A stretch of DNA of 64,000 bases from positions 39,029,799-39,093,798 of the forward strand of contig CM026426.1 of assembly GCA_014871385.1 (NCBI GenBank), written 5' to 3'. This DNA is from Ceratodon purpureus. Lineage: Eukaryota; Streptophyta; Bryopsida; Pseudoditrichales; Ditrichaceae. The notes beneath the pieces are model-generated. The model saw only the letters and a program-made list of their open reading frames with translations, was not told the DNA's origin and did not search any database. Positions 4,053-50,468 of the stretch are shown piece after piece. Position numbers and translations under genes: made by a program. Every line of letters starts with the position of its first letter. Within the stretch, counting starts at the first letter, position 1.

Positions 4053-4225
4053 GTAAGGTCTTCAGAGAATGCACCATGTTTTACTTTTCTGGACACATTA
4101 GCATTATTTAGATGAACACCATATTCGTTATTTTGGGAGATATTCTTGAATTTGGGAAATCAGCGTGTAGAGAAATGGCCACATTCGTGCCTTCCCATTT
4201 ACTTCAATCTTGCGGAAATCAATAT

Positions 4226-4409
4226 TGAATCATTAAAAAAACACCTTAAAGGAACAATGAGGTCCATGTCATTTAGGTCGAGTGGACCTAAATGCACGAA
4301 CATACAGGAGAAAACTTAGTAATGTTCATTGATTCATTAAAAACATGTTTAAAGAGAGATGATGATTAAGTCATTTAGGTCGATCACACCTAAACGCAAT
4401 ATAAACAAG
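4226..4409. repeat. Element A palindromes 4272-4292 and 4374-4394 in a 2-copy tandem unit
   Basis: A unit of about 103 bp containing GATTCATTAAAAA or close to it, then TCATTTAGGTCGA, occurs twice. Each copy carries a diverged palindrome of the form TTTAGGTCGA-N-nnnACCTAAA. The 102-bp spacing is close to twice the 52-bp pitch of the main array at 11216-11979. Confidence 0.7.
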
Positions 4410-4713
4410 GAAAAAGAACATACCACGTCCCTTATATTTTTAGTAGTAACTATTCGTTACCTTTCTAAACCAAGGTTTCAATAAAAGGCAATGTCCAATC
4501 ACATAAATTACATTCGGAAATTTGAAGAACACAAAAAGTGTGCCAGACAGTGAGGCAAAAATAGCAGACGAGAAAATTTGACAAACAGATCAATCGTTTT
4601 ATTCAAAACATAATTACATTGAAATAACACAGACGACTCTTATAATCGTCTACATTGTCTGCGCCATTGCTATACAGTACATAGTATCCTCTATATGGTT
4701 ATGGAATCCCTCC
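4410..4713. other. 3' flank of the phosphatase gene
   Basis: AT-rich DNA downstream of the minus-strand stop at 4714. It is the likely 3'UTR and terminator region of the phosphatase gene; nothing else is visible. Confidence 0.35.
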
Positions 4714-6924
4714 TTAAGCCTCAATTCTTGACTTGACAAATTCCCGTTGGCGCTGACGTGTCCACGACATTCCCTCAACCTGCATCATTGGACTATTAAG
4801 AAGACGTTGCAACTTCTGCCTACGCCTGTCACCGATGCTTGACTCTGGCAGAGAGTGGCGACGGGTACTGGATGGTTTAGAGTGGGAGTCGGCGGACTTC
4901 CTTGCCCCGGATCCTGTAGTTGTTGATCGTAGCCTCGGCATCTGCAAAGGGGATAAATTAGCATTGGGAAGAGATTTCGGTTTGGGTCGAATCGACCTAA
5001 ACTACTGAGTGCAAGTGTAAAGGTCAAACGGACCTTGAACGAGGAGGCCTAGCTAGAACCAAACCTAGATGAAATTATAAAAAGATCAATCATTTTAGGT
5101 GGCCTCGAGCTAAAATAAGGACATCAAAATGAAACATCATGAAAGAAACTTACGAGAATGAAACATCAGAAAGGAATGAAAAGCTAATACTGAGGAATGA
5201 AAACCAACCTTTGCCGGTGGTGGTGACGGCATGTCCTTCACATTGTTATAAAGAGCACGTTTCCTAGGGATAGAACTCTGCAGATAGAACTTGCAGTACG
5301 GTCCGTGGCCACATAGGAGAAGGGGATTTCAGGGTCTTGCGAAGGGACAGGTTAACCGGGCTGTCCACAACCCCTTTGTCGACAGCCATAGTTGAATAGT
5401 CCATCGTGGACTGCGCTGTTGCAACGGATTGCAACAGAAGCCCTCTGCTACGTAGAGAGGGCCCGCAGCCATAAGCATTATTCAAAGAATCCACTGAGGC
5501 TCGACATGCATTATCCTGCAATACATAAAGCGAATAGAAACATACATCCCCCAATAATTCAGCAATGGTTTAGGGTTCCTCGCAAGGGGCAGAATAGATC
5601 AAGAAAGAAATATAAACTTCGTATTACAAAAGGAGTAGTCTCGATACAAAGATTACGCAAGTGGTTAAGATGTACAACATACTAATAGCTCCGCGGCAAT
5701 TCGAAAATGTCTATTAACAAAGTAGAGAACCGAAATCATGCCAAATTATGCTCTATGACTAATTGCCTCGTTAATCTTAGCGTATTGTTCACAGGTAGAA
5801 TGGTCATCATAATACATTTTCTTCCCGATCGGACGCTCGGCCCTGAATCTAGCGATTGTCCCCACAAAGTGGTGTAGGTCTACAAGATATGGCAAAAGTT
5901 TCGACAACAAAAAACGATCATCTGCGACATCGGGATTCTGGTTGTTCCAAGTGGAGAATGAAAGGACATTGTAAGAATTATTCTGACAGTGCTTGATCGG
6001 GCTGTCGTCGATAAAAATGGTGTTGGCTTCGAAATATAGGCCACCAAATTTACGAAAGAGACCATTAGACATCGGCTTAAGGAAGATGTCCTTCTGAGTC
6101 CCGGGTTCCTTCATATATACTGGACGACCTCAAAAATCTACGCCCATAGAAACTCTCTGACAGTCCTCTTGACCTAGAATTCTGAGCGGATAGACAGGAC
6201 GAATCGGACCGAACAGATAGTCGTAGATCATTTTTGTCGTCGAAGTCTTCATCGAACTCCAGACGGTTATGGTTGCGAACGTGGACAACCGACGAAGGAA
6301 ATCAGCGCAATTGGGCGTGACACAAACAAGCTTGGGGCCCACGACTGTTGGCTTGGACGCTGAGTGGATGCTAAGGTCATGGCTGACAAATGATTGTCCA
6401 GGCCAATTAGGAGTACTGGAGCAGAGTACTCCATTGAGGTCGAGGACAACGTTCAACCAACCAGTCTGAGGTCGCGTCGGGACAGGACTCAATTCTTCAC
6501 TAGAACTTACGTCACATCCAGATGCCTCGCGCACCTGGAGAGGAAATACCGATGACAGATGGACATTACTATATTATACTAGGACGGAGTTATACGAATG
6601 ATACAATGAGGACAGTCGCAAGGCAAGTCAGTACCCAAGGAAACAGTGCAACGAGATATAATGATGGATGAAATACCTGAAATCCTCGGCTTGACCTTCT
6701 ACAACATCCTGATCCTCCACAGGATCCGTCGACCCTAATGAATCCTGAGGTTGAACGTCAGGAATGACCTCTACGCACGTTGGCAAGGTCAGAGCACACT
6801 GGGCCGTGACATCTAAATCCATATTTGTGCGTATAGGCTCATCCGCAGTTTGGGCCATGACAACATCATCCTCGATCGGAAGATCGTCCACTTCCTCATG
6901 CACTTCGTGACCTGGGCATTGCAA
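4714..6924 (-). pseudogene. FCP1/NIF-type (HAD) phosphatase gene of element A, broken
   Basis: A HAD-superfamily phosphatase of the FCP1/NLI-interacting-factor type, a family that removes phosphate from serine or threonine of nuclear proteins. An acidic N-terminal exon (6924-6677, starting MQCPGHEV) precedes the catalytic region (6534-5746). Visible motifs are VVLDLNGVLC (the family DxDx(T/V) box with Asn at the second Asp), ITVWSSM, and IFIDDSP with the conserved DD. A TGA at 6130-6132 interrupts the domain. The same frame continues directly into GRPVYMKEPGTQKD, so CGA-to-TGA is likely. C-terminal basic exons (about 5275-5212 and 4947-4714) are joined across an intron holding two palindromes. 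The phase between the first two exons does not match, so another small indel is probable. The Asn-for-Asp change also occurs in plant relatives of this domain, so loss of catalysis is not certain. Confidence 0.6.
4981..5114. repeat. Element A palindromes 4981-5001 and 5094-5114, in an intron
   Basis: Two diverged copies lie in the intron between the last two phosphatase exons: TTTGGGTCGA-A-TCGACCTAAA (perfect except one pair) and a copy with a TTTAGGTGGC left arm and a TCGAGCTAAA right arm. Confidence 0.75.
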
Positions 6925-6993
6925 GAGAACTATAGAATCATCAGAGAGTGATCAATGAAGCTGACATAGAAGGGATTGGTAAAAAGGTAACGG

Positions 6994-7014
6994 TTTAGCT
7001 TGGGTCGAGCTAAA
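6994..7014. repeat. Element A palindrome between the two genes
   Basis: TTTAGCTTGG-G-TCGAGCTAAA lies in the 193-bp spacer between the stop of the ParB/methyltransferase-like gene (7118) and the phosphatase start (6924). Confidence 0.8.
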
Positions 7015-8083
7015 CAACCCATTTGTATTAATTACAATCATTTTGGTACAAAAATGCACATTTCAGTGAACTACTCCATATTAACACCTCATCTACAAAT
7101 TTCCGAGTTCAAAAAATCTAAGTTTGGGAGGGACTTGAAGATGTCTTAGGAGCATCTCCCTGAGTCTGATTGTGGGAGGGAGAACGGGGTGGTTTGGGAC
7201 TAGGGTCACGCATGACCTGGTCAGTGCAATGATGGCTTGGCTCAAGCACTGATGCGGGACTCGGATCCAACATTGGCAATTTTGCACCACCGGTAGGGGA
7301 TCCCAAAATCTCAAGTACTCGCGAAGAAGGTGGGGCGCTACCTATCGGCTGGACGTTGGGCAGAATTGGACCCGCATTCGCGAAAATAGGGACATTACTG
7401 ATGCCTCGCAGAGCCGCCTGCACTGTCGCCTGGACAGTCTTCTCTATATCCATTTTCTGCTGTGCCATCTGATCTTGTAAGTCTTTCTCCCTATCCTTGG
7501 ACGCCTGTAATTCTGCAATAAGAGCTTGAACATCCGGAGAGGGAGCGGCTCTCCCCAACGGGGAGGCTTGCCGAGCTGTAGGATTAACCTTCTTTTTCTT
7601 CTGTGCCGGCTTTCCAGTACTTCGCGCACCGCCAGTCTTTCTCCCACTTCCGGATCCCAGCTCCGGTGCAGAACCCGGTTTCTCGTCGTCCGTACGTGTA
7701 ATGCCAACCTCGGGAGAATCGAGTCTTCTCCCCACTCCACCTTCAGATGCTGTCTGACTTACCGGATCCGAAGGCGGAGCATCGCTCTCATTGCTAATGT
7801 CCGCAGCACTGGAGGAGGGGGTCTGTTCCTCGGTAGGGGCATCCTCCTCCAGATCAACATCGTCACCCTCCTCCACAGCTCTGCCTTTCCCTTTCCGCAC
7901 GGCTCTGCCATATTCCGGAAAGCGTTCCATATCGACATAATAAGCGTCGACACTAAAATTGGTTGGGTCCAGAGTTAATCCAAGTGACTGAGCTTCGATC
8001 ATATGAGACGAGTCACTATCATTTGCGACCACGAAAGCCGAGACCGAGAGCATCTAAAAAAAACAAAGGCAAGGTAAACAAGG

Positions 8084-8175
8084 TTTAGCTTGACTCGAGC
8101 TAAAGTATGGAAGTGTATGGATACATGGTGCATAAGATCAAAACAGTAGAACGATTTAACTCGACTTGAGCTAAA
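8084..8175. repeat. Element A palindromes 8084-8104 and 8155-8175, in an intron
   Basis: Two copies (TTTAGCTTGA-C-TCGAGCTAAA and TTTAACTCGA-C-TTGAGCTAAA) lie inside the 138-bp intron 8191-8054, which splits the methyltransferase motif I region. Confidence 0.9.
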
Positions 8176-9614
8176 GTGTGGAAACACTTACCGCGGCGGC
8201 CATGAGGGACTTCGTTCCAGCATAGAGCTGATAAACCGCCCCCCCAGTATTGCAGAAAGTGTCGTGGACCTGCAGGTAGAACTCCATCCTTTATTCGGAT
8301 GGATACATTGCATACCTCCTTTCGTTAAACTTCCTGTTGTCCGTGTACAGTGGGTGGTCCGGAGTTGTGTACTTGCTCAGAGGTTCTGACGTTGACCCGT
8401 TGTTCTCAAGTACATTATCATCAATGAGAAACAGGAGTTTGACGGGTTCCATCGCGATTCTGCTCTTCGGGGGGTGTCCGCCAAGTCGCTCGTTGGGAGC
8501 GGGTACATACTCAGAATGGACTCTTCTACGACCACTCAAGGTGTTTTGCTCCACCCAAGTAAGCACCTGGGCGAAGTCCTCATCGTCTCCGCAAATGAGA
8601 AGCCAGTGGCGAACATCGTGAAACTGGGGCTGCCCATACTCATCGATCATTTTGAAGAACTCCATGAAGAAGGGGTTCTCCAAAGTGTAGTTGTGCCTCG
8701 TCTTGTAGGTTGGGAGGAACCGGAAGTCGATGATTCCGTATGTGACTACGCCGCCCGCCAACCTCCATATATCGGAGGGCCAAGATCCGAAGGCGAGTCG
8801 AGGCTCCCTGATGAATGGGAGGAACCACATCTCAGCTGAAGGACACTGAAATGCATGTCAAACCTTCAGGAAGGTTTTAAAGAACTCAACTGCATATGGG
8901 GAGAGATCCTTGGCCGACTTGTTGCGGAACTGTGTAGCTCTGGAGTTAGTCCAGTACGAGTCTGGAATACCCCAATCAAGCAGAACGTGCTTTGACTCCT
9001 TGGAGACATAGTAAGTCTTCTTGAAATGCTTCCAAGCGGGTACATCAAAGCCGTCTCTCTTGAATAAATGGAGCGTTGGATTAATGTTGTTGAACTCCGC
9101 TTGAGCTACAGCCTTACGTTTTCTTCGCTCTGCCCACTCCTTGACCGAGTAGCAGTCCTCCAGTACACTCGTATTCTGCTTGATGGTAACCTTTGGATAT
9201 GTGTACTTCCGACTTGGCCCAGACTTATGCAGGATGTGCTTACACAGCTTCTGGTGATCTGCCTCTGTCAAGTTCCCGAGCCATTTGAAGAACTCCCTCG
9301 GAAGCGTCCCATCCTTGTCCGGAACGAACCCCTTCTTCTCATAGAATTTCTTATGAGGAGCTTCGGTGTCGGGATCAATGAGTCCACCACATGCCACAGA
9401 CGCGATCACCTCCTTCCACAGGTCCCATGTTTCATCACTGGATGTGATGATGAACAGCTCGTTTGTTAGGGAGATAGTGTTCTTCCTCCCTTCTTCGCCA
9501 CCATGGCTTGATGCTTTGCCACATCGATCATAGCGAAGCGCTCCCTGATTGCATTCACGAAGTTCTGCATACGCACAGGAAGAAACCTTAGATGATGCTG
9601 TCACGGAACTACTC

Positions 9615-9703
9615 TTTAGCTCGACTCGAGCTAAATTGCTCGAGATACACCTGAATATTGAAAACAAAGAAGATTATCAATATTTAGCTCGACTCGAGCT
9701 AAA
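9615..9703. repeat. Element A palindromes 9615-9635 and 9683-9703, in an intron
   Basis: Two perfect copies (10-base arms TTTAGCTCGA/TCGAGCTAAA) fill much of the 169-bp intron 9733-9565 of the ParB/methyltransferase-like gene. Confidence 0.9.
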
Positions 9704-11215
9704 CTGCTAATGCTATTGAATCAGTGAACTTACGTCGTATGTCTTCGACGCTGGATTACTTTTTGGACCTGTACTCCTGCGCTCGGCAGCACCACCGGAA
9801 TTATGTTTCTTTTGGGACTTACCATACTTCACCCACACTTTTCTTGAGGCAAGTATATTGCTCGCCCAAGTTGGCTTAAAGGGTGCGAGATGGTTCACCC
9901 GATTATAGAATGCTGAGATCTTTCGCAGCTTATCTACATCAAGCGTCCAAACGATGTACGCATCCCACCTCCTGAAGTCCCTCACCAACTCCTCACTGGC
10001 GTTATCCTCGATGAAAGATTTGGACGCCGCCACGCTGTGTTGCCCGTTGATGATGTTGAATGTACAGCCCCTTAGATCCTCTTCTTGTTGAGGTTGTGCC
10101 TTTGTGTCTGGCATCAGACACACGGTTTGCTTCTGTGTCCTATCCGGCATGTTGACCAAGTAATTCTTCATCTCCTCCATGCCCTGCTTCTCATATGCAC
10201 GGATAGTCCAATGGGCCGGTGCGGGCTTGCACCGCGTCACGTCCACACTGAACTTCTTTGGTTGCCCATTCGTTTTGAAGACGAACTCGTCCTGGCAATC
10301 AGCGAAGAAATTCTGGTAAATTCGATTGGCATTATCGAAGTCCAGGACCTCTCCAACCTTGTTCACCTTTGGAAGTTCCCCGAGAACAGAGTTCAAACTT
10401 GTTGCCAAGTCCTCCGCAGATAAGAGCAAGTCCTTCTTGGGCTTTGGCTTGTCAGTTTTCTTCTCGAGGCCTTTCTTCTTCAATGGTGAGAGGGGTGTGG
10501 GAGTTGCAGAAGCGCCCCGGCTTTGGGAAGGAACTATTGCTCTCCCCCTACTGCGTCCTGTCTCTTGGCTTCCCATTTGGCTCCCGGTTGCTGTCACTCC
10601 AGAAACGTCAATATGAGATTTTCCCAGGTTTTGCTTAACCTTTGCCTCCGTTGCCCGGAGAGTAAGGGTGCTGACAACATTCCTCAGTTTAAAGGCTAGG
10701 AACTTTGCCGCGAGAGTACGTCCATCTTTTGTTGCCCACTTCCTGTCCAGTACTTCTTGCCTCATTGTGGTCACTATCTCGTCGTAGGGTGAATTCGACA
10801 GACTTTCCATTAAGGAAATCGAGTCGAAGAGGTTCTCTGCTACGTCTACTACTATGGAGAAGAGGTATGGATTAGTCCCCATAGATGAGCAGAGGATCTT
10901 TATTTGATCTCTCCCCTTGTGGTCAAACTCGGTAACCTTCGTTTCTATGTCGATGACGTGGGGATCATTGACTTCACCCTTGAAAATGGTTGCGAAGGTA
11001 AGATATGGGGTGTGTGCAACCCATCGCAATGTCCAATTTTTGACCTTCGAGGGGTCTTTGAAAGTCCACGGCTCAAATGTGTTTGAGTCATCCCCGTCAT
11101 CGTCATTCGAATCCGAGTTAGGAACAGGCTTGAAGAAATGTTGTAGCGCCCCAAGTACCCTTGTTTCTCCTCACTGCAAGGAGGAGACGTTTAACATTAG
11201 AGAAATTCAAAGCCA

Positions 11216-11979
11216 TTTAGCTCGATTGGAGCTAAATGTTGGTTCAATTACAAAATATAACACATGACATCCCAGCAGTTTAGCTCGACTCGAGCTAAAC
11301 TGCAAGGGGCCCATGGTAGGGGTGGAGCAGTTTAGCTCGGCTCGAGCTAAACTGCAAGGGGCCCATGGTAGGGGTGGAGCAGTTTAGCTCGACTCGAGCT
11401 AAACTGGTGGGACGCCCACCATGATCCCCTTGCAGTTTAGCTCGACTCGAGCTAAACTACTTGGGGGCTTTACTGGGAGCTCTTTGGTTTAGCTCGAGTC
11501 GAGCTAAACTGAACACCTACTAGTAAAGTCCCCAAGCATTTTAGCTCGAGTCGAGCTAATTTGCTTGGGCTTCATAAAGGAGCACTCTCAATTTAGCTCG
11601 ACTCGAGCTAAATTGTAGGTGGATCTCCCGAGTAGGTTTCGGGAGATACACTTACAGTTTAGCTCGACTCGAGCTAAACTGAGAGATCTCTCTGCTGTAT
11701 CTCAGCAGTTTAGCTCAAGTCGAGCTAAACTGTAGGCAAAAGCTACTTTGTACTCTGCAGTATAGCTCGGTTCGAGCTAAACTATGAGTGGTCAAATTAG
11801 CATTTGGCTACAGTTTAGCTCGACTCGAGCTAAACTGTAGCAATTAATGAAATAATTTTAAAGTAATTTATGTTTTTAATCTTCTTTTATACATGGTGGA
11901 TGTGAGTTTAGCTCGAGTCAAGCTAAACTGTCACGCGATAATTGTCTTCCGCAAGCAGTTTAGCTCGACTCGAGCTAAA
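11216..11979. repeat. Array of 14 palindromes at about 52-bp pitch
   Basis: Copies start at 11216, 11279, 11331, 11383, 11436, 11488, 11540, 11592, 11658, 11709, 11761, 11814, 11907 and 11959. Ten of the 13 steps are 51-53 bp; the others are 63, 66 and 93. Each copy is 21 bp, 10-base arm TTTAGCTCGA, one central base and TCGAGCTAAA, and many extend by CAG/CTG to 27 bp. Spacers are about 31 bp. The two between copies 2-3 and 3-4 are identical, most others differ, and some recur inverted. The array lies immediately upstream of the first visible exon of the ParB/methyltransferase-like gene, in its promoter or first intron. A 52-bp pitch equals about five helical turns, so the copies would face the same side of DNA. 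Role unknown; iteron, partition-site or regulatory array are possibilities. Confidence 0.93.
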
Positions 11980-12389
11980 CTGAACTTGATTTTTGAGAGA
12001 TTGATTATGCAATTTGCAGCAATATTTAGTACCTCTCGGCCATTTTTACTCAAATCCCTCCGTTGTGAATCTGCTGCGACGTGTTCCGCCTGCAGAAAAG
12101 AAGGCATTTTGAATGGTCAGAACACGAATACGAGACTGTTACAATGGTTTCACATCCTATCACACTCGTTCCGGAATAAGCGGAAGACAATCGACTAAAG
12201 TGCTTCCAATAAGCCCAATACTCACATACTAATGCGACTGTAACTATAAATATCAAAATAAACCTATGTTGAAACTACAACACAATGCAAATGACATTGA
12301 TATGTAATACAAAATACAAGGAATATGCTATTGATTTTTTTTCTTATGGTACACACATGAACTCACACAAGCCTGTTGAGAACCACACA
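11980..12389. other. No gene recognised upstream of element A
   Basis: AT-rich DNA immediately beyond the last palindrome. Neither an earlier exon of the ParB/methyltransferase-like gene nor a terminal inverted repeat could be identified. Confidence 0.35.
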
Positions 12390-12660
12390 TTAAATCACAA
12401 ACATACACACACATACCGAAAACGAACAGAATTCAGAATTCGAAACCCAAGACAAACAGACAGAAGACGAACAAAATTCAGAATTCAAACACACACAGAC
12501 GCACAGAGCAGACGAACACAAACAGAATTCAACATTCGAACACACACAGAATACGAAAACAAGACAGAATTCTTCCACAGACAGACACACACATAGCACA
12601 TAAACAGTACGAACAGAAACAGACACACACAATTCAGAATTCAGTACGAAAATTACAGGA
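12390..12660. repeat. Degenerate CA-rich satellite with repeated GAATTC units
   Basis: Imperfect repeats built from ACAGAATTCAGAATTCGAA and CACACAGAC-like words continue for about 270 bp. Open frames through it on both strands are produced by the repeat and are not genes. Confidence 0.7.
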
Positions 12661-13308
12661 TGCTAATCCTAAACTAGCGAGAACATGCCAAAAAATTACA
12701 ATTGAACCCAAAAAGAAACAAAAAAACTCAATTGACAAAACCCTGAATTGAGATATTCAATGGAATTGAACTGAAAACTACAAAAAACGAGTAATGACGA
12801 CTTTGAAACGCACCTGAGACTTCTACTGCGCCGTGATTCTCCAAGCCGAATTCGACGCCGTGATTCTCCAACCCCAAGCCGAATTGGACGCCTTCGTACA
12901 CCGTCAACAAAGTCCGTAGTGGGAGAATAAAAAAAACTAAACCCTAAAGAACCATGAACAGCCCAATTACAAAACACCTGAAAAGCTCTGTACAAACCCT
13001 CGCACGAGCTCAAAACCCAATCAAGAAACACCTCAATCAACCTCCGCGCAAACAGACTTCACACCATAAAATACAGCTAAACCCTAAGCCGAAACTACAC
13101 CTAATAAAGAAGGCGCACAGCCTCTGCAAGAACCAAACTACTTCAAGGCGCTCACATGCTACGGTATACCCCCGGTACTCGCGCGTGCATAACTATCTCT
13201 CACTAACATGACACCTAAAAGGAAATGAATTCCCGCCACGACCAAAACCAGCGCGAAAACACCACAGACAAAGAAATGCAAAACAAAACAAACTGCGTGG
13301 ACAGGGTC
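12661..13308. other. No gene recognised; short internal repeats
   Basis: Contains a local duplication of CCGTGATTCTCCAA/CCAAGCCGAATT near 12830-12895. Open frames here lack recognisable motifs. Confidence 0.35.
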
Positions 13309-29130: not shown

Positions 29131-29392
29131 AGGGCGGCACAATATAAACTGCCCCCTTGATTTGACAAATACCTTACCTCCTTGCGTGCTTCATGTCCTG
29201 GGTCTCATTGAGGGCTCCTTGCTTGAAATTGTTAGCTTGGTAAGACACTTGGTTTGGGTGGGGGGAATGTAAAGATTCTTCTCTCCATAAATCAATGTGT
29301 CAAGCACTTTTCAGACACACTAAGTTATATCAGATAATAATCTTTTGGTTCTACTGGTCCTATTAGTCCAAAGACTTCCCTAATCATTCACT

Positions 29393-32300
29393 ATGGATCC
29401 GGTTGAAGCGGTTGAACCGGTTGAAGTGGTTGCTCCGGCTAGAGCCATTCCGAGACTCGGTACGAGAGAGTGGGCACCATGGTTTACGGTCAAGCTCCAG
29501 GAAGGGTCACTGTCACATAAGGTAGCCCAATGTGTGTATTGCAGGACCAAGTTTTCGTACGTGAAGCATAGGTGCCTTCAGCATTATGGTTGGGACCAGT
29601 CCAATCTCTCGAGGGTTTGCCAAAAGGCACCTACCGTAGTGAAGAGGAAGTTTCAGTTTTGCGCTGGGAAGATTCCCGGCTCTTTGACAAAGGAGGAGAT
29701 GGATGGTATGAGGCCAACGTACCCCGCGTCAGTTCAACGTCCGTGTTCGAGTGCTTCCACACACGGCACTCTATACGATGGATCCGAACCCTCGTATAAT
29801 GATACCAAAGAGGACCAAAATGTCTCCAGTGCTGCACCTAGTTGGGCCGGCTCGAATACCACTAGGAGCTTGCGGCAACAGGACATGAGCGAAGCACTCC
29901 AGATCTCCAAGCGAAAGGAGCTGGACATGTTGTGGTCATCCTTCTTTTACGAAGCCAACGTCGCATTCAACGTGGCCAAGCACCCAACATTTATTAAGGC
30001 GGTGAGCACAACCGCGGCTGCCGGATTTAACTACGGTCCTCCTTCCTATGACGCGATGCGAACAACGCACATCAAGGAAAAAAAGAAGCAAATCAAGGCA
30101 AAGGTTGATGAACGTACGAAAACGTCGACCGAGTTATACGGGGCTACCATTTGCTCTGATGGTTGGGATAATGTGAATCGCCGACCGTTGATGAATGTCA
30201 TGCTAGTATGTCCGGCAGGCGATGTATTTCTTAGGTTTGTTGATACGACTGGCGAGAAGAAGTCAATGGGATACATTGCTGGGGAGATGAAGAAGTACAT
30301 TCGAGAAATTTGCCCTCAGAATAATGTCCAGATTTGTACGGACAATGCAAGCAACATGCTTGGCGCCATGGATAATATCCTAGAGGAGTATCCTCACATG
30401 TACAAGCAGGGATGTTGTGCCCATATTCTAGATCTTCTTATGGAGGACTAGGGCAAGGAACGCTTTGTGAAGGATTTGGTCGCCAAAGCTAAACACGTGT
30501 ATCATTACATTTGGAGACATCATGAACCTATGGCCCTTTTCCGCAAATTTGAACCCAAGTTGTCCTTGGTGGTTCCCGCTAAAACCAGATTCGCTTGTAA
30601 CTATCTGATGATAGCGCGCCTTATGGAGGTTAAATTTGCTTTGGAGCAAGTGGTCATGGCATCAGAGTGGTTCGAGTATGTCGACGGTCTATTCAACCAA
30701 ACCGACGGGGTGCGTAATCATGCACGCGCAAGCCTAGTGCGTCAAACAATCCGTGATGATGGATTTTGGCATCAGTGTGACAACTTCAAGCACCTGGTGA
30801 AACCAGCCCTGGTAGCTCTCAGAACGTTCGATGGAAACTAGCCCGCAATGGGCAAGGCATGGGTTACAATGAGCAACCTAAAGGATAACGTATACAGTCT
30901 CCGAGGAGACCCTTGCTTTTTCCCACCGGACATGGCAACAAGGCTGGAGAGGCGATTCGATTGTAGATAAGACATGATGCACACCGATCTTCATTATGCC
31001 GCGGCGCTCTTGAACCCTTGGGTTAGAACGCATAAGGGCTTACAAGCCATAGGAGAAGCGAAGGCGGCTCTCAATCGGGTGTTTTGTCAGGTGGGTGGGC
31101 AAATGGGAATTCCATTTGCCGAACTCGTAGTAGAGATGATCGAGTTCGACGAGGAACGTGGCCCTTACAGCCTCCAAGTGACCATCGATATTGAAGCAGC
31201 AAATCTGGAACCCCATCAATGGTGGCAAAAGATGGGGGGGGGGGGGGGGGGGGGGGCGGCTTGGCAATCATTGCAAAGCGCATCTTATCTCAGGTCTGCT
31301 CCGCCTCATCGTGTGAACGGAATTGGAGCATGTATTCATTTGTCCACAACAAGGTACGCAACCGCCTGGGGGTGGAGAAGTCTGAGGCCTTGGTGTACAT
31401 TTATACGAACAGCAAACTCCTCCGTGAACGCCCAAAGCCCAACCCCCTCAGATGGTACGAGAACAATGCATGGTCAGAGGAGTCAGATCCGGAGAGAGAT
31501 CCGAGCGAAGAGGACGGAGATGACGACGATCATTACATACCGGATGACCACGCAGACGGTGAGGATGATGATGTCTGGGGACATGATCACGATGACGTTA
31601 ACATGAATGGGCCTAACGACAGTAATGGCAACGGGGGTGATGACGCTTACCGCAACGGTCCTCGTGACCGCAACAACCACGATGATAACGGTGATGCGTA
31701 CGACTTCAACAATGAACCAGAATATAACCAAGGAAACCCGGACATGAACATCTACAGAGACGAATTACCCACACTCCCGGTTTTTGATGAAGCGGCTAAT
31801 GCAGAAGGAAGAGACGCACGTGACGTAGGAGATGCTATTCCAGTCCATATCAATCCCGATAACAATGACCGGGTTGCGGATGATTCATCCAGCGAGGACC
31901 ATCTTGGCAACGATAACCATGCTGGCGATGATGACGAGGACAATGACGAAGGGGTGATGGAAGTCATGGACGGGCTGCAGATGGACCTCATTGGACCGGT
32001 CTCGTTAGTGGGGAGGGCAACTGGGGAACAGGTTTGGCACAAGGAGACTCAAGCTCGCTTCAAGAGATTCCTCCTGCTCACGAGAGAAGGACCGTTCACG
32101 CAATCCCCGCACGGACTATGCCTCCATTGCAACCGACTCATATGGGGGGTAACGAAGCAGATACAATTGTGGATGGAGGCTTGGCTCGAAGGCCCACAGG
32201 TTCAATGGGCACAAAAATAGCTAGACTCCTTAGATCATCTGCAGTGGCGAGACCTCCACTCAATCGAGCTGGTGGTAGTCGAGGTGGTGCCTCCACCGTC

Positions 32301-33624: not shown

Positions 33625-34990
33625 TGCTAACATTGGAGTGGTACGAATGACGTAAACGGGAGGCGATTACCCATACATACGTTGACAAGGGAGAGTCGGG
33701 AATTAAGGCATTAAAGGAGCAGTTGGAAGAGTATTTGTGGAAGAAGCTGTAGAGTTCCGAGAGATATAATGATTGTATTAATTACTATCATTTCCCTAAG
33801 TGGATGGAGCAACAAATAATAACAAACACTATGAACATTGTGCATGTGTTTGAGTGTGTCAACAAAAAGCCGACGGAGGGCTACTCGCAGGCCAGAAGGA
33901 GGAGATAGAGAAGCTCGAATATGTCCAAGATTTGTGCAAGAGATTCTCGAGTAATAGGACGAGGGTGAGGCCATGGCTTGAAGCTGGACTGAAAAGCGCA
34001 ATGGATAAATACTTGTGGGGAGCAGTGGTCTCGGTTCCAAGAGGGGTCAAGTTGGTTCCGCTGTCAGGCATAAGGGAAGGCGGGTATGGTAAAGTCCTAA
34101 AATTACGTATTGTTGGCATGGAAACCATACCTGAGACTTGTGTCTTTGCGGGGAAGATGTCCAAGGCTACTGACGAGACCCAGAAGCGGTACGAGACAGC
34201 AATAGAAGCCATGGTTTGCACGATTGACCATCCCGGCGTTATTAAGTTTTTTGCGGTCAATGACTGGACGATGGAAGCCTACACACTTTGGTGGAATGGG
34301 GATTGCCTGCAGAATTTTCTGCACAAGTTCAATTCAAATATCGGTGAGGGTACTCAGAACCGTAACATCCACAAGCAAACCGATATGCCCATGGAAACAC
34401 GTGACCGTGTTAAGGCCTTCCGCACCCATAGGGCCAAGCTAGCTTGGGCACTGATCTGTATTATGGACCGGGTCCATAAGGGGTATTTGCAGCATAATGA
34501 CATCTCCCCGGGAAATGTCTTGCTTCACTTCCCAAAGGATAAAGTGAGCAAAGTTTACATTGGAGTATGCGATTGGGGCCTTGCAAGTCGGGTGTGTGAG
34601 ACAACTCCTTCAAATTATGGTTACCCAACTACTCAGGCGCGTACTGCTGCCTTCAAGGAACGTGGTACTTTTGTCGCTCCGGAGTTGTGGTACACTTATG
34701 GTAAGCCAAATTTGGAGACCTCATTGGAAACTCTAAGGAGGAGACATCTATATACGCAGGCTGCCGATGCGTACTCGGTTGGAGTGGTAGCAAATAAGAT
34801 TTGGGATAACGAGGACGACATCGACCTTTTCAAGGATGTAGCGGGGAAGGCTAGATTTGGAGTGGTGTTGAAGGAGCTCACAAATCCCGATCCAAAGAAC
34901 CGCTCCACCTTGCAGGTGGCCCACGCTAATCTAACATCCCCTTCCTACAATTTCCAAATCCCAGAGTGTTGTTATCGCAAACATATTTAG
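33625..34990 (+). pseudogene. Protein-kinase-like gene, left copy, decayed
   Basis: The kinase domain remains: REGGYGKV (glycine loop), VFAGKMSK (lysine), QHNDISPGNVLLH (catalytic loop as HND), CDWGLA (DWG in place of DFG) and GTFVAPELWYTYG (APE), ending CCYRKHI-TAG at 34990. Compared with the copy at 61001-62569, the first roughly 240 bp including the start codon are deleted near 33620. Several stops lie in 33650-33850, and one nucleotide is missing near 33890 so that the N-terminal part and the kinase domain are in different frames. It is therefore a pseudogene, although the kinase domain itself is still open from about 33900. Confidence 0.75.
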
Positions 34991-37788: not shown

Positions 37789-38979
37789 TAGTCTTCCTCC
37801 TCGTCATTCCAGTTCATCAAGATTCCATGCGATTTGAAGTTTGCCATGGCAGCATTCACAACATCTTCGGGTATTAGATGGGACTTTGGGGGGCCCTCAT
37901 GCGTAGTTTTCTTGGTCCTATGAGTGTATACAACGGATTTACACTCCACCCACTCCGCAAGAGTCAACTCCTTTTCCCACCGTCTTGTCCAGCACTCTCT
38001 CGCAACTTTCTTCTTACCTTCCTTCTTGCCCTTCATCGGAGTCCACCATTCAACCTTGAACTTACCGTAATTAGGACTAGGCTCAGTTATAACAGGCTCT
38101 ATCGCCCTATCCATCCAAATGGGTAGGTGGTCTTCCTTACACGGACGACAGAACACCTAATCGCCACGTAACACGTCACGATATGGGTTAAACATAGACT
38201 TCGGCCTAGAGTTTTTTGGACCGCAGAAAGGATAGGGCTCTACCTCATTCTTATCACCGGGACGAATATCCGGATCCGGTATATATTCGTCCTCTGCATC
38301 GAATGTGGTGACGTGGTCCCGCTTCCAGTCTGAGATAGGCCAGAATCCTTCCTGTAAGGTGGCGGAATTGGGGGGGAGTGGCTCGTTGACCTCCTTTAAA
38401 ATTCGCTCCCAATACAGTACATATGGTAACATGTCTTGTGCGTATTTCTTATCCCGAGCCATGCCAGTTCTCCAGTACTCAATGTACTTAGATAATCCAC
38501 TTTTGATGAAATTTCTCTTCTCTGAACACTCTACTGCCCTTGCCACCTCTTTATCTGCGTTCCTCTTGCCCTCATCGACTTCAACACTACCCCATAAGTG
38601 CTTATGAGGAACTGGTTTGGGATCACCGACGGGCAAATGTGGTTTACCCTCTTTGTCTGCCCTCCACATTTTCACGGGTTTGCCAGGTGGAAGCCATGAC
38701 GGATCAGTTGCACGCTTCTTGTACCTCATCACGGGCCACCCCGCATCCTCGCCATCCTCCACTACATAAAATTTAAAAAGATGCATTTCACTATGACCTT
38801 CTATCGCATTACCTCCGTCGTGATGAAAATCAGCAACATAACTTTTGAAGTCTGCCACTTCCTGAACAACAACTGGAATAAAGGCAACTGTCTTCTAAGA
38901 ATCCATGAATGCCTTCATAAGGTCGGCAAGGCAGTATGTGTTCTTTCGCTTAATGAGTTTCGACAGGTGATTAAAGTGG

Positions 38980-39663: not shown

Positions 39664-39711
39664 TGGTAATTTTGGGCTAAAGGAAAAAATTGAAACCTCC
39701 ATAGGACAACT

Positions 39712-42700
39712 ATGCCACCAAGAAAAATTGCTGCGGAAGCAGCAAGAATCACCGAGGGAGAAGAAACCACTGTACAGGATGACGCTGATGTCACCAAAGA
39801 ATTCCTTGAGTGGATGAGACAACAGATGACGGATCTGGCGGCCAAAAACGATGCCACAAACGCTAAACTGGAAATGCTCAGTGAGCAGTACCACAATTTA
39901 CAAACTAGCCGATCCCAAGAACCAATAGCCGAATCACCTTTGGACAACGCTGGACAAACCTCACAAGCCCCTGGGGAAGCACTACGGTCGACAACGATTC
40001 CTAGGGGAAATCCCACGGCAGCAACATCACATAGCCTACGGAGCCATGACAATCACATCAAACTACCAAAAATACAGTACCCAGTATTTGACGATAACGG
40101 TGACCCAGATTGGCATGTCCGGCGATTTAAGGTCATTGCGCGGATCAATGGCGTCAGTAACACCGCGGATTTACAAAACATATTTGGGACCACACTGCAA
40201 GGAAACCACATTAATTGGTACATAGATTTTGAGACAGATCACCCGATTGCTACTTGGGACGAGATGGAAGCCAGCTTCTTACAAAAGTTTAGAAAGTTAA
40301 AGACAAGCTCAGAAATCCTTAGAGCATTAGGAAGCATCACTCAAGGCAGAGAGGAACCAGTGGATAAATTCTATGATAGATTTAAACAACTGGCGGACAA
40401 GCTTAACCAAAAGCCCGAAGAGGACTACTTATGCGAATGGTTTAAAAAGGGATTGCTACCCTGGATACAACAAGGCATCGTTATCCGCGGAGTCAAAACA
40501 CTTCATGACATTTTCGGCGCGGCTAACGATATTAGTCGCGAATTAGGGACTCTGCAGAAACTACAGACTCCTCTATTACCTCTACCCGTATTTCGCACAG
40601 ACACCAGGGTAGCCGCCTCGCCTTGTAGTACTTGTGGCAAAATTCACCCAGGACGGTGCTGGTTCGCCAACAACACTTCACGCCCAGAAGATAGTCGACG
40701 TCCTAGACCCACCGCTGCCGCCATGCAAACCGAGGAGATTGGGGTAGACGCATTTCAGCCAAGCAGGAATGATGCGTGCTGGGAGTGCGGCTCTTTGCAC
40801 CATAGACGCGGTCAGTGCCCTTCACTGCGCCAACGGTGGGCCGCAGCCGGAGCCCCCTCGACAGAAGTACCCGGAGCACCTCAGCTACCCAGGCGTGGAG
40901 GCGTGACCATCAGCAAAATCCCTGGAGCCGAAGCAAAGATAGCAGCTATAACAACTGCTGCAGTAACCACCCGGTCCAAAAACGACGTCAAAGACAAACA
41001 TGAAAACCATGTCGTGGAACCACGGAAGTCGTTCGCAGCGGATCATTGGGAAAAATTACATCAAATCCGCCGTAGCTTGCAAGAAGAGCTAGAAGCACCA
41101 GTGACACCGGATCTTCAGCATATCGTAGATAGTACTAATGTCACGATAACACTGTCCAAACTAATGCAAATTAGTCCTGAGTTGCAAAGATATCTACAAC
41201 AAGCAGCACTGCCTCCACCACCGAAAGAACCCGCCACAATTGAGGTTAACACCACCACGCTAGATCCGGACGCCGCGGTCATCCGTATGCGACTCGGAGA
41301 GTTTGAGTTGTCCAATGTCCTAGTAGACGGCGGCTCAGGGGTTAATGTGATGAGTAACCAGTTGAGAGAAAACCTTGGTCTTCCATTACCTAAGGCCGCC
41401 CAGTTTATACTTCGCATGGCTAATGATGCTCCCGTGACACCATTGGGCATCTTGTCATCTGTTGCCATAACAACCCATGGTGTAACAACGCCGGCGACCT
41501 TTGTTATCATCTCTATGCCCGAGCGAAGTAATTTTCCAGTTATCTTAGGACGACCTTGGCTTCGCGATATGAATGCCATTCATGACTGGGCTAGGAACCA
41601 GATCCGCATTCATCACCAGGGACGAACCATGATCATTCCTGTGGACAGCTGCGTTACCCGAGCCAAGGCGGATCAAATTCGAAATAACGCCGGCACCAAC
41701 TGGCTCAAAGGACTGTCCCAGGAGCAGGAAGCCTTAGTCTTCCAAGCTGACCCAAATCTGGTTCCTCTAGCAGAGATCCACTTAGCTAGCCTAGTGCCCG
41801 AACCGGATAAGCTAGACATCCCTTCGCATTTTACCCAGGAAGTTAAAGACACCATTACAGTCAACGCTACCCCGGCCACAAAAGCATTAAAAGATCAGGC
41901 CGTCAACGGATGGTCCCATGGTGCAAAGGACAAGGTTGAGCTAGTCAACCTAGGAACAACCGAGGAGCCTAAGTTCATTAAAATTAATGCAGAGGCCCCT
42001 GACGACATCAAGAAGGCCGCCATCGACCTCTTTCGGGAATACCAGGATATATTTGCGTGGGGCCATGAAGACCTGAAAGGCATACCACGCGCCTTAGCAG
42101 AGCACACGATAGACCTGGTACCAAATGCCCATCCTGTACAACAACGGCGCTATCGAATGAATCCGAATTACGCGTCACGAGTTAAAGCAGAATTGGATAA
42201 ACTATTAAAAGCAAAGTTCATCTCTCCTGTTGACTCTGCACCATGGCTATCTCCTATGGTGATTATCCCTAAGAAAAATGGCACTCTCAGGATCTGCGTG
42301 GATTTCAAAAAACTTAACGCTGCCACCAGGAAAGACCATTACCCCCTGCCATACATGGAAGAAATAATAGATGAAGTGGCAGGCCACGAGATGTACTCCT
42401 TCCTTGATTGCTTCTCAGGATACTACCAAGTTGCCATGGCTGACCAAGATAAAAACAAAACAGCATTTTCCACCGAATGGGGACCATACCAATTCGAGAG
42501 AATGCCGTTTGGAGCCAAGAATGCCCCTATGACTTTCCAACGTGTAATGGAGCTCATTTTTCGACCCTACCTCAAGAGATTTTTTCGTATTTACTTGGAC
42601 GACGGCACTGTCTACGGCACCCAGCAGGACCATGTCGCCCATTTACGACAGATCTTCAACGCCTGTAGAACCAATGGTGTTAGTCTCAATGCAGACAAGT

Positions 42701-45198
42701 GCATGTTTTTATTTTTTGCAGGTATCATTCTTGGTTACATCGTCTGTAAGTACGGAAAATTACCAGATCCAAAAAAAATCAAAGACATCCTCAATATGAC
42801 TCCTCCAGTAAATCAAAAAGGCGTCCAATGACTTCTTGGTCTCTCGCAGTTCAACAGAATCTACATTGAAAAACTTGCTCACATCACGGCTCCCATCACC
42901 GCCCTAAATCACGCCAGATACTCTTACCCGCAAGATTGGACACCAGCCGCCCAAGAAGCCCTCGACAACATCAAAGCGGCATACTCCAATGCGCCTATTT
43001 TAATAGCACCAGATTGGTCTAAGCCGTTTCATGTCCACACGGACGCCTCTAACATCGCGGTCGGCGTAATGTTGGCACAACGGCTCAATGGCAAACATGA
43101 TCAACCGGTGGCGTATGCTAGCAGACTATTAAACCCCGCTGAAAGGAACTACTCGACAACAGAGCGAGAAGCCCTAGCCATGATCTACGCAGTAAAGAAA
43201 TTCAGGCATTACCTCTTGGGAAATCGATTCAGATTTATCGTAGATCACCACAGCTTGTCGTATTTAGTCAACCAACCTCTGGTTACAGGGCGAGTCGCTC
43301 GATGGATCATGATACTACTAGAATACGATTTTGAGGTCGTCTACGTACCTGGTAAACGACACATTATCGCAGATTATCTCTCCAGGGACACCACTGCCAC
43401 CGACGACGGCATTGACGACTCTTTTAATGATCCATACATTCAGTCGGCAACGGTGACACCCGAGGACGCCACCGACTGGCGCAACCCATACATACAGTAT
43501 CTCACCTCAGGTACTCTTCCCATTGACGTCACGGGCACTAGGAGAATCAGCTTCGTCCGAAGCACCTTGCCTTACACAGTGGTTCAGGGTCAGCTTTACC
43601 GCCACGGCCTTGACGGAGAAACAAGAATATGCATCGCCAAGGCACAACAAGACGAGATAATGGCTCATCTCCACGACGGCCCCGCCGGAGGACACCAAGG
43701 ACCCGACACAACGATTAAAAAAATACTAATGGCGAAATACTGGTGGCCCACGCTCCATAAAGATGTCCACCAGTACATTAAACAATGCCATGCATGCCAA
43801 GTCTCCACGACAAATTTCCAACACCAAGGGAAAGTGCCTCTGAAATCTATACCGCCATTAGGCCCTTTCCTACGCTGGGGCTTAGACTTCATAGGACCCA
43901 TTCGACCTATTACCAAACACGGGTTTCGGTACATTCTTGCTGCTACAGACTACACTACAAAGTGGGTTGAGGCTAAACCACTGCGTACTAATACTGCAAT
44001 AGTCACTGCCAATTTCATTTATGAAAATATTATCACAAGGTTTGGATGCCCCCTGGATATTATGTCCGACCAGGGCACCCATTTTGTCAACGCTGTCATC
44101 GAAGTACTCATGGACAACCATGTCATAAAACACCGCACAAGCACGGTATATTATCCCCAAGGAAACGGGCAAGACGAGTCCACCAATAAAACATTGATCA
44201 ACATGTTACGTCGTTTTATACAGGCCAACAAGAATGACTGGGACGACTACTTGCCCGCAGCACTATGGGCATATCGAGTGGCAACAAAAACTGCCACCCA
44301 GGCAAGTCCGTTTGAACTGGTATATGGAACACAGCCCCTGCTGCCAACGGAGTACATCGCACCCACGTTTCAGACCTTGCTGCCCCGGGATTATACCCCG
44401 CATAAAGTCTTGGTCGCCCGGTTACAGGACATCCATCACCTGGAAGAACTGCGAGAATTAGCTTTACAAAACACCACCAAAAGACAGCAGCTAAGCGCTC
44501 AACACTTCCAAGCCTCTAAGCCGCCCCGCATCTTCCAGAAAGGGGATTACGTCCTTTGGTGTCCAAGAGATCCGAAACTCCGCAAGCTGAAGTTTGACTC
44601 CATCTGGCACGGGCCGTACCGTGTCCAATTAACACTACCTAACAATACGGTACTACTTATCAACAATGATAATTTTGACCCCCATGCCACCATAGTTAAC
44701 GCCACGAAACTAAAACATTACCACACTAATTTGGACAAACCAGCAACGACTTTAAACCTGGGCGATATCTCCAATGCCTTGGCACAAGAGGACGTCACCG
44801 AGGGTGAAGAGACAGCACAAATAACGGATCATCACAATGAGGTCACCCTTCGCATCCCAACAGACGCCAATGCCACCCAAAGCACTCCAGATAGTTACCC
44901 AGAAGTCAGTATTAACCTGATCCAGGTCTACCAACTGCCCCTACAGACCAGGAGGTCTCAAGGGCTCCAGGGACATAAGAGTGACAAGATGGCATCAAGT
45001 CACCTCCCGCGCCGCCTAGATCGGGCACCGCCGCCACGATACTCGCCTGTCTCCCATCCATGTCAAATCCCGCCACCAGCAAGCCCCTGCTACTCATCAC
45101 CCAGGGACATACATCAGATCAACTCCCAGACTCTCCCATCATCCCAGCCCCCACAACGCCCTGGCGCTCTCGTCTTCTTCCCCAAGGCCCCCACTTAG
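39712..45198 (+). pseudogene. Gag-pol polyprotein of first retrotransposon (two stops)
   Basis: Single frame from MPPRKIAAEA. The gag core (about 40080-40500) carries [14 protein letters not shown]. Cys-rich knuckles are CSTCGKIHPGRCW and CWECGSLHHRRGQC (CX2CX4HX4C). The protease active site reads [13 protein letters not shown] has RICVDFKKLNAAT and YLDDGTVYG (about residue 961). RNase H has [11 protein letters not shown]. Integrase has an HHCC finger ending CHACQ, then GLDFIGPI, SDQGTHFV and GNGQDESTNK for the DDE residues, then a VLWCPRDPK tail; no chromodomain was recognised. TGA at 42829-42831 falls between RT and RNase H where the sister element has Arg (likely CGA-to-TGA). TAG 45196-45198 ends the frame before the 3' region that is fused in the sister element. 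It is therefore probably defective. Confidence 0.93.
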
Positions 45199-45276
45199 TG
45201 CGCATTCTGCTCCCCCTCTTCCACCTTCTCTCAACGCTGCCCCAAGCTTTCTGCCTTCCGTACCAGGGACGCCACC

Positions 45277-47534: not shown

Positions 47535-48192
47535 TGTTACCACAGGTCACGGCCTTCACTGCAGTCAAGGACGACATCTTCGGCAGAGACTCCCAGTCGT
47601 GGCGGCCTCCACTAGCGGCAGATATAGTATAAGAAGCTTAGGTTGTAGTTAGAAGCTCTCTCTTTTTTGCTCGACTCAGGACTATTGAGTTAGGGTTCCG
47701 CGTACCTGCAGACTGCGGCCTAGAGCCAGACACTATTGTTTCCTTGACGCCATTTTCTCTTGGCCGACCTCTAAAAGACTACGTACTTGATAAAAACCAC
47801 TCTCTCATACTCCTCACTTCCACTCCTCTCCTGTGTATGCTAATGTTGTGAATGATCTGCTTCCTTGCTTCTCCCTTGCTGGCTGAGGGCACCGACCCTC
47901 GCCATTCTCTCCTTCGCTCACTACCCTTGGGCCAGAACCTCTCTTGGACGACCTGGACACCACAACGGAACGAAGCTACCCTTCCCCTTCCTCCGACCGA
48001 GGCCAGGGCGACTCGTTCCCTCTTCCTTGCTCCCCTGTAACGGTTGAGTGTCCCTCCCACGCGATACCCGTACCCTCCATCCGGGTATTAAGGGCGTCAG
48101 GTTCTCACTCAAGGACCTCCTTGGACCCCGCTGACTCCCCCTGAGTACATCTCCCCTAAGCCCTCGTCACCATCCCACGACCCCAGCTAACA
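47535..48192 (+). repeat. 3' LTR of first retrotransposon
   Basis: 658 bp, about six substitutions from the 5' LTR (for example at the positions matching 39165, 39194, 39260 and 39276). Followed by GCGTC at 48193-48197. Confidence 0.95.
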
Positions 48193-49060
48193 GCGTCGAT
48201 GTCCTCATGTGTGTGTCCCACAATCAGGAAACCAACTGTAACTTCCTTGAATATTCGCCTCGCCGTCAGCAACGAGCAGAATGCTAGAAGAAACCGGTTC
48301 TTGTTGTCCTTCGCAGAATTGTCAAGCTGGAGATACAACTTCTTCGGCAAAGGAAGAGCAGGCCTACCAGACAGAGGTGGAGTGAGTGGTTCATCTCTAG
48401 AGGGTGGAATTGAAGGGATGCAACGTGACGATCCATGCATTAGCGCTTCAAAGAATTCATTCTGTGGTGGAGCCTCGAAGAGTGCTTTTGAATCCCGGAT
48501 AGGTAGTCTCTCCAAGGCACGGAATACCCTGCACAACGAGGAAATTGTGAAATTTGGGTCTCCTGGCCACAGGGCAGTTGCATAGTGTGCGTAGGCGCCA
48601 TCTCCGTGACCGTGAGTCAGCATTCCAGTACAAGAAATCGGAATTTGACCAAGCCCTGCCGTAGCCTTCGTGATACGTTGCATCCGCGGGATCGCTGTTT
48701 TCGATGTGTCCATCTTATCGTGTATGATGCATAGGAACTCAGTAGGACTCTGTATAGATTGGGTTGTCCATCCGTAATAAATGTTGCGACAAGCTCGCTG
48801 ATAGTTCAAATGCCTCGTCCTATCCTCTGTCAAGCTCTGCCACTCGACCGACCCTCTAGGATACTTGGCAATGAGTTCAACAAGGAAGTCACACTCAGTG
48901 CACTTGGAGAAATTACTTCCTACCGCCTTGACCTCAACGTTGCGGAAGTACTCCTTCCTCATGCGACTAACGGAGGACTGCGAAATCAGCTTCGCGTTGC
49001 ACTGCTCATTGACCTGAATAGCACAGAGTGAGGCCGATCAGTTGGCAAGTTCGTCATCCA

Positions 49061-49077
49061 GTCGGCGGGCAGCCGAC
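49061..49077. repeat. Element B dyad inside an intron
   Basis: GTCGGC-GGGCA-GCCGAC lies in the 116-bp intron 49137-49022 of the element B gene (donor GCC|GTAAGT, acceptor TTCAG|GTC on minus). Confidence 0.9.
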
Positions 49078-50210
49078 GATAGTAATCACTACAATTCAAT
49101 AAAATATCCAAAGTGAAAGAAGATGAGGAAGAACTTACGGCGTTGGCCATTTCGCGCATGTGATTCCAGTTCATCGCAGACGGGAGTACTTTGAGCGCGG
49201 CCACTCTCCTCTTGCCAATCATCCTAAACTCATTGGGCATTTGGTCGGCATTCTCATTAACGATGATGGTCAACGTCGCGCGGGCCTAGATTGTGTGAAT
49301 CTGGGGACGACATACACCGGAATTTCCGTGACTCCCATTGACACGGCCACTTCGTGCCGAAGCCTTGTAGCTGTAGTACGCGGATTTTGATACTCCGTGA
49401 ATGATATACCACGCCACTTCACATACGTCAACGTTCGCAAGAGTAACATAGAGCTTCCGCTTGCCGGGTACAGTATGTAAGTGCCCTTGCACAGCGAAAG
49501 ACATCTCTCGCCTCGCCTCCAATGTTGTTGCGTAAAATCTACGACGAATACGCACAGTATCTTCCCATCTAAAAGTCTGGCAACATCGGTCCATGCAACA
49601 CCGCTTTGAGCTCACTAAGCGGCATTCAGCAGGGACAACCATTCGACGAAGCTTAGTAGAGGAGACGTCATCTTTTTCACGAACTTTCCTCCTCACCGAT
49701 CGATAGGCATTCTTCGGGACACCATCCAGACCATCATCAGCGTTGGCGTCTGCTAAATTCCCGGAGCAATAAGTAATTATATCAGAGAGAAGGTGACCCC
49801 CTTCTAAGCGAGTGTGAGTCAGAGTTGTCATCTGCAGATGATCGTCTTCAGAGACGAAGAGAACCCCAACCTCTGTATCCCCTAGGACTTCATCATCACA
49901 TGCCTCGTCCGATAAACATACTTGAATCATTGCTCTACCACGGACTGATAGGTCATCATTAAGAAGTTCGACATACCGATTTCTTCAGAGGTGGCGGTCA
50001 GGATAAGAAGCATCTGGAGTGGATGGAGTACCCGAGGTCCCGGAATCCGGACCCCAACAATGATCATCTGTTTCTACGTCGGATTCCCCCTGTTTAGACA
50101 CATCGTCGTCACTGCTGATATTCATTGGAGACCTTTTCCCCAGATCCTGCTCAAACGGAGCGGAGTTCCTTTCATCAATTTCTTCATTGTCGTTCCCCAA
50201 GTGAGGTTCC

Positions 50211-50463: not shown

Positions 50464-50468
50464 CTACA
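50464..50468. repeat. Target-site duplication CTACA (left) of second LTR element
   Basis: CTACA precedes the 5' LTR and is repeated at 59611-59615. Excision restores the element B frame (RGSKRCV continuing AAGVIMECSP). Confidence 0.95.

Follow-up and report, generated by a model that had tools for sequence, protein, structure and literature searches.

The palindrome array at positions 11216-11979 of a 64,000-nucleotide stretch of fire moss (Ceratodon purpureus) DNA, hereafter the window, belongs to a DNA transposon with a DUF7869 transposase gene. We give about an even chance to the reading that the array is a set of dyad-symmetric sites, bound by a protein that the element itself encodes and that allows copies of the element to be expressed. 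The sites that we examined avoid coding sequence: they stand ahead of both genes, in the gaps between exons and close to the element's ends. As far as sequence comparison goes, they are either conserved in relatives or symmetrically different between families. The array is ordinary in kind, being a transposon's own site array; what sets it apart are its palindromes and the predicted proteins that adjoin it. The window (C6:39029799-39093798) lies on a contig of 110,524,308 bp, which we infer to be the V sex chromosome, in an assembly of 362.5 Mb; a review gives the U and V chromosomes more than 100 Mb each in a genome of 360 Mb (PMC8000587).

The element is a cut-and-paste transposon: two complete copies, A on contig C8 and B on C6, carry 27-bp terminal inverted repeats and 4-bp target-site duplications (GTTT for A, CTTC for B), and intact transposase genes occur in the family. 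Copy A, 18,564 bp long and ending in AACACCATATTCRTTATTTTGGGAGAT, is inserted in a Gypsy element, and its empty site is seen in related Gypsy copies of the window. The family includes many copies without stops, but the one in the window is dead and fragmentary. Its second exon is interrupted, and it lacks the right part, where array 2 and the transposase would be; the match to B ends at 13267.

Read from left to right, copy A comprises the end, subterminal variant sites (TTTAGGTCGA...), a minus-strand gene, array 1, about 6.5 kb in which no frame exceeds 180 codons, array 2 and, on the plus strand, the DUF7869 transposase. Beyond the transposase come further subterminal variant sites, two of which read TTTAGGTCGAGGCGACCTAAA, and then the right end. 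Array 1 of this copy holds 13 perfect palindromes before the ParB-like gene, with 9 of 12 steps at 52-54 bp (a pitch of about 52); array 2 holds eight palindromes, seven of them perfect, before the transposase, with steps of 47 bp (six times) and 48 bp. None of the 35 matches in copy A (at up to five mismatches) falls in coding intervals, which cover 7.8 of 18.6 kb and were set by hand, the exon borders being our own reading of the sequence. Both arrays may lie in leader introns, since strings resembling 3′ splice sites directly precede both genes. In the window, such a string, CTCCTTGCAG, comes after array 1 on the minus strand, and the array is possibly part of the leader intron of the minus-strand gene.

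The palindrome is the 21-mer TTTAGCTCGAnTCGAGCTAAA, found with 0-2 mismatches in each of the 14 copies of array 1. The start-to-start steps given in an earlier note on this DNA (63, 52, 52, 53, 52, 52, 52, 66, 51, 52, 53, 93 and 52) were reproduced exactly, from copies within 11210-11979. Its description of a near-perfect palindrome of 21-27 bp also fits, as the arms reach CAG...CTG in most of 13 array copies (at up to one mismatch). The array extent it gave is right for these 14 copies and overlooks the other sites: the window holds 22 matches at up to three mismatches, against none in 100 shuffles, all at 4272-11979, and eight of them stand outside array 1, at 4272-9703, with a weaker extra copy at 4374. 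At this threshold the window, A and B contain 22, 33 and 27 matches, and there are none outside the element.

Across the 362.5-Mb assembly the exact 21-mer occurs 2,293 times and its reversed control not at all. Of 50 distinct places listed among the 2,293, 49 fall in three clusters that hold matches to the ParB-like exon or the transposase of the family. A satellite or host array is rejected. In every copy examined the 21-mer adjoins the same genes. In 28 further loci (L012-L041 except L012, which is the window copy, and L015, which is B; with 1.5-kb flanks; L039 was measured on its intron side) 139 of 227 steps measure 51-54 bp; other steps recur as well, at 39, 62-66 and 88-95 bp. Perfect palindromes make up 276 of 391 (at up to three mismatches, in 31 non-redundant sources, GGTCGA variants set aside). 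In these sources 63 of 152 palindrome mismatches lie on the four CpG letters, a share as would be expected if old copies were methylated and deaminating.

Outside the moss, the exact 21-mer is present in no viral contig and in three prokaryote records (L001, L002 and L003), L002 and L003 having one place each. Viral contigs also yielded no confirmed relative of the ParB-like exon. L001 (1-4327), assigned to the cyanobacterial metagenome bin AVDCRST_MAG81, is probably moss DNA, because its transposase is 67-68% identical to that of the moss family. A bacterial or viral origin is rejected on these counts. Protein P0031, from AVDCRST_MAG94, looks like a case similar to L001.

Conservation of the site can be followed in protein databases. 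Many relatives of the ParB-like and methyltransferase-like exons have been predicted past the splice site, and their tails spell the palindrome as peptide (FSSTRAK, LARVEL, QLESS-stop). At up to one mismatch, such peptides occur in 18 of 33 relatives of the ParB-like exon and in 15 of 49 relatives of the methyltransferase-like exon; in the same two sets, 200 palindromes with scrambled arms scored 0.055 and 0.03 on average and never more than 3 and 2. At up to two mismatches, 90 of 1640 shuffled proteins matched. Many of the remaining relatives seem, by eye, to stop no later than the splice site. Some positives, P0025 and P0027 for example, have 31-32% identity, and the centre base varies (G 8, C 7, T 5, A 3) while the arms stay. 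Among transposase relatives, 2 of 89 contain palindrome-coded peptides, one of them (P0103) near its start. Upstream of the transposase gene of L001 stand an exact 21-mer and two copies with one mismatch. Annotated DUF7869 relatives also exist in Physcomitrium patens (P0102, P0113, P0117, P0125 and P0128).

Other DUF7869 copies extend the comparison. A sister family, represented by a copy at C3:53134-55974 to which the next 47 scored matches are 55-57% identical, carries nine sites ahead of the transposase gene: four are exactly TTCAACTCGAnTCGAGTTGAA, four differ by one letter and one by two. Relative to the main family their arms are changed symmetrically and the core CTCGAnTCGAG is kept; their steps are 108, 45, 45, 56, 98, 109, 165 and 104 bp. 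A copy at C6:72358082-72360766, 57% identical to the sister and outside the best 48 main-family copies of 1763 candidates, may represent a third family. Upstream it has seven repeats, five of which read TTTAGCTCACATCAAGC[TC]AAA, mostly 122-125 bp apart. Site sequence and symmetry are kept between the main and sister families and pitch is not; the third case is symmetric in part.

The features of the window copy are as follows.

4115-13267, no strand: left part of the transposon, by homology to copy B over 4115-13267 and to copy A from 4115
4115-4141, plus strand: left terminal inverted repeat AACACCATATTCGTTATTTTGGGAGAT, found at both ends of A and B with one variable letter
4272-4394, no strand: subterminal variant site with arms TTTAGGTC...GACCTAAA at 4272 and its weaker copy at 4374; A and B have similar variants towards their right ends too
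4981-5001 and 5094-5114, no strand: two diverged palindromes from the scan at up to three mismatches
5749-6573, minus strand: NIF (NLI-interacting-factor-like) phosphatase domain, in two frames here and in a single 275-codon frame in copy A
6994-7014, no strand: single palindrome between open frames
7121-8053, minus strand: open frame that follows the 8294-9673 exon on this strand, without a Pfam match; by eye, its start may complete the methyltransferase-like domain
8084-8104 and 8155-8175, no strand: two palindromes in the predicted intron after the methyltransferase-like exon
8294-9673, minus strand: exon with a predicted DNA-methyltransferase-like fold; 49 relatives of the copy-A exon, of which P0034 was modelled, with matches to M.BceJIV, CcrM, MTA1 and METTL3-METTL14
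9615-9635 and 9683-9703, no strand: two perfect palindromes in the predicted intron after the ParB-like exon
9716-11170, minus strand: ParB-like exon; 33 relatives, an AlphaFold model, and Foldseek and VIA matches to ParB, Noc, KorB and sulfiredoxin
11216-11979, no strand: array 1, 14 palindromes, 10 of 13 steps at 51-53 bp

The gene divergent from the transposase would thus encode, by predicted fold only, a ParB/sulfiredoxin-type and a methyltransferase-type domain. The model of the 9716-11170 exon has a fold of the ParB/Srx superfamily, and the putative phosphate-binding motif reads NGQHS, presumably lacking the Arg of the ParB and sulfiredoxin motif. The dN/dS of this exon between the window and copy A, 0.31, indicates coding constraint. 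Pfam scans of it gave no telling family. The second exon is modelled with the fold of DNA N6-adenine/N4-cytosine methyltransferases; in the window it is interrupted (frames 8861-9673 and 8294-8857), and its end at 9673 includes intron read-through. Catalytic motif IV of methyltransferases is DPPY/W; the strand that we tentatively take for motif IV ends in IDFR in the consensus of relatives. Sequence support for a ParB or methyltransferase assignment was absent among PDB sequences. The centre of the palindrome, GANTC, equals the CcrM recognition site, but was discarded as a link to CcrM: by chance alone, 1 in 16 odd palindromes would have this centre. The NIF domain matches Pfam PF03031 at E 1.1e-05 (above the cut-off) and 0.0016 (below it).

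The transposase frame spans 950-967 codons and is stop-free in 34 of 48 scored copies (the best 48 of 1763 candidates). DUF7869 is probably a DDE-type transposase, judging by conserved D motifs and its place in the element. For the ParB-like exon, 88 genomic copies were scored, with identities of 87-100% (the best 88 of 537 candidates), and within this set it lies divergent within 20 kb of at least 36 of the 48 scored transposase copies. On C6, which makes up 30% of the assembly, are 58 of the 88 scored exons and 17 of the 48 scored transposases; both sets are the best-scoring ones, ranked by likeness to one query, and give no measure of chromosome enrichment. Exon copies at least 90% identical to that of the window, among the same 88 of 537, are on C6 in 30 of 34 cases, less similar ones in 28 of 54. 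Older relatives may persist on the non-recombining chromosome.

The earlier note had read the pitch of about 52 bp as selection for protein binding on one face of the helix. What stands of this is the behaviour of dyad sites, which are conserved, adjoin the same genes and change symmetrically between families; the phasing is not general. At 10.5 bp, array 1 is phased with R of 0.87 in the window, 0.70 in A and 0.88 in B, whereas array 2 gives 0.02 in A and 0.07 in B, its 47-bp pitch being about 4.5 turns. This value and the sister spacing of 45-165 bp speak against same-face phasing as a general selected property, and a same-face ruler as the key feature was rejected as a general rule. The even pitch is probably best read as a history of tandem and inverted duplication, because array spacers are related in both orientations. 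In copy A, a direct or inverted relationship is recognisable for 28 of 55 spacer pairs of array 1 and for 17 of 21 of array 2; the figures are 6 of 55 and 1 of 3 in copy B, and 6 of 66 in the window. The note overlooked that some array 1 spacers are reverse complements of each other. Spacer length has outlasted spacer sequence in the window and in B, which would be compatible with a degree of constraint on the spacing of array 1. A tandem repeat at 1409-1513 of the window also has a period of 52 (2.1 copies); its sequence is unrelated to the palindrome.

In the mechanism that we propose, a DNA-binding protein encoded by the element would recognise the palindromes as a dimer. It would coat non-coding DNA of the element and so leave copies of the element open to expression, whether it acts as an activator or opposes host silencing in the manner of VANC on VANDAL. 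Duplication of site and spacer, in tandem and inverted, would provide more sites at an even pitch. The binder is more likely the ParB-like/methyltransferase-like protein, otherwise the transposase; binding by the former is attractive by analogy, given its predicted fold and the palindromic sites of ParB and KorB.

Several results weigh against this proposal. One exact copy of the 21-mer stands alone outside any element (L053 4583-4603, C1:15616582). No ParB or methyltransferase family of Pfam, NCBIfam or PHROGs matches the exons, which are assigned by predicted fold, and Foldseek has no match at E 0.001 or better, the best being 0.0047 for the ParB-like and 0.0028 for the methyltransferase-like fold. 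In the 9.4 kb upstream of the sister transposase, tblastn finds no ParB or methyltransferase homology, yet palindromes are present. The repeats of the possible third family are palindromic in their 7-bp outer arms only. Finally, the window and copy B have diverged alike in palindromes (2.9%), spacers (3.0%) and exon (2.6%): these two copies show no present selection on the palindromes, a pattern expected for decay after insertion, and lend no support to a function of the window's own array. The L053 palindrome has extended arms, and the 9 kb around it contain no other element sequence.

The absence of a ParB-like gene in those 9.4 kb makes the transposase a serious rival binder; the sister result would speak for it, or for a gene that was lost or lies further away. 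We regard as a tentative possibility, clearly short of even, that the palindromes are DUF7869 transposase sites, serving end synapsis and, at the internal arrays, autoregulation, as with TnpA in CACTA. Sites upstream of the transposase are common to the main family, the sister and L001; related repeats precede the transposase at C6:72358082-72360766 too, and a symmetric variant site stands near both ends. Yet the large arrays lie deep inside the element, with several kb between them and the ends, sites occur between exons of the other gene as well, and the third copy's repeats have a non-palindromic centre between their arms. TnpA of CACTA/Spm binds subterminal repeats. Both elements have multiple short element-specific motifs, partly near the ends; the moss element differs from CACTA/Spm, with its subterminal TnpA sites, in having its main arrays internally, a DUF7869 transposase, a duplication of 4 bp and ends that read AACACC. 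Rather improbable, in our estimate, is a plant transposon with a ParB-parS-like system of its own, in which a captured ParB-methyltransferase-like protein would load at the palindrome arrays, spread along the element, and mark it or shield it from host silencing, protein and palindrome co-evolving between families.

It is unlikely that the palindromes act as RNA, that is, as leader-intron hairpins or double-stranded RNA affecting splicing or small-RNA silencing. The predicted fold of the array transcript is indeed strong (-425.5 kcal/mol, where 20 shuffles average -206.8 kcal/mol) and the arm changes between families are compensatory. However, a palindrome array with inverted spacers folds well anyway, so the energy is not independent evidence, and a stem needs pairing only, whereas the arm letters are the same in distant relatives and the core is common to main and sister families. 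A non-functional minisatellite, grown by duplication inside the transposon, would explain the spacer relationships and the lack of palindrome-specific constraint between the window and B; we consider it very unlikely in view of the conservation in distant relatives, the sites after two different exons and the symmetric change between families. The slightest probability goes to sites for a host protein (enhancer, insulator or origin) carried by the element. The position of both arrays directly upstream of genes would suit them, but a factor of the host should also have sites in host DNA, and all but one of the 50 places listed are in element copies.

The earlier note knew of no eukaryotic element with this layout, but motif arrays encoded by transposable elements do exist, as in VANDAL/VANC. 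VANDAL21 of Arabidopsis, as two papers describe it (PMC5735166, PMC10398659), is like the moss element a DNA transposon with genes for a transposase and an accessory protein, and its short motif is repeated in tandem both within introns and ahead of the transposase gene. VANC21 localises to introns and to intergenic and terminal non-coding regions, with motifs often in tandem repeats (PMC5735166). Related VANDAL families use different motifs in these sources, as the sister family here uses TTCAACTCGAnTCGAGTTGAA. The VANC21 motif YAGTATTAY is 9 bp long and non-palindromic, whereas the moss site is an odd palindrome of 21-27 bp; VANC targets diverge rapidly, whereas the moss motif is conserved across distant relatives. 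Repeated motif arrays in non-coding parts and family-specific motifs are therefore common to both, and anti-silencing in the moss would be so by analogy. Bacterial ParB/parS and KorB/OB likewise combine a ParB/Srx fold with palindromic sites, and KorB site oligos contain TTTAGCGGCTAAA, with the outer arms TTTAGC...GCTAAA of the moss site, which may be coincidence (PMC11790492). Unlike these, the moss system is in a plant nucleus.

The element may be identical with Lanisha. Lanisha elements are reportedly from Ceratodon and enriched on its sex chromosomes. Lanisha DNA transposons (Maumus, McDaniel and Carey, Repbase Rep. 2020, reference 35 of PMC12730594) come from a description whose authors worked on the Ceratodon genome, and their criterion is C(2)C plus H(3-4)H between the second D and the last E. 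A C(2)C follows the putative second D, as we assign it, in 1 of 71 DUF7869 relatives. Our literature search found no paper on DUF7869 and, by title among the papers listed, none on a ParB/methyltransferase transposon in moss or on eukaryotic ParB-like proteins in transposition that would match this system.

The rest of the window is rich in other elements. Further DUF7869 transposase fragments lie on the minus strand at 48159-50470 (Pfam match at 48159-49037) and 38160-38894 (recognised by eye), and no recurrent palindromes were found around these two. Two retrotransposon stretches (39694-47484 and 51193-58896, the second with a 2568-codon frame) are taken for Gypsy-type, and copy A sits in a relative of them. 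A DUF659 frame at 29384-32217 presumably belongs to a hAT-type element. Two similar frames, at 33854-34987 (plus strand) and 61004-62134 (minus strand), have protein-kinase matches at or near the cut-off, with GC-rich tandem repeats nearby.

The moss element is abundant, also on a sex chromosome. If the proposed binding is true, plant transposons would have a second kind of motif array by which an element targets itself, and the predicted ParB/Srx and methyltransferase-like folds of its accessory protein are, to our knowledge, unlike VANC. Since the palindrome differs between families, joint change in site and protein could be tested directly. It would also suggest that eukaryotes make use of a ParB-type domain beside a methyltransferase-type domain.
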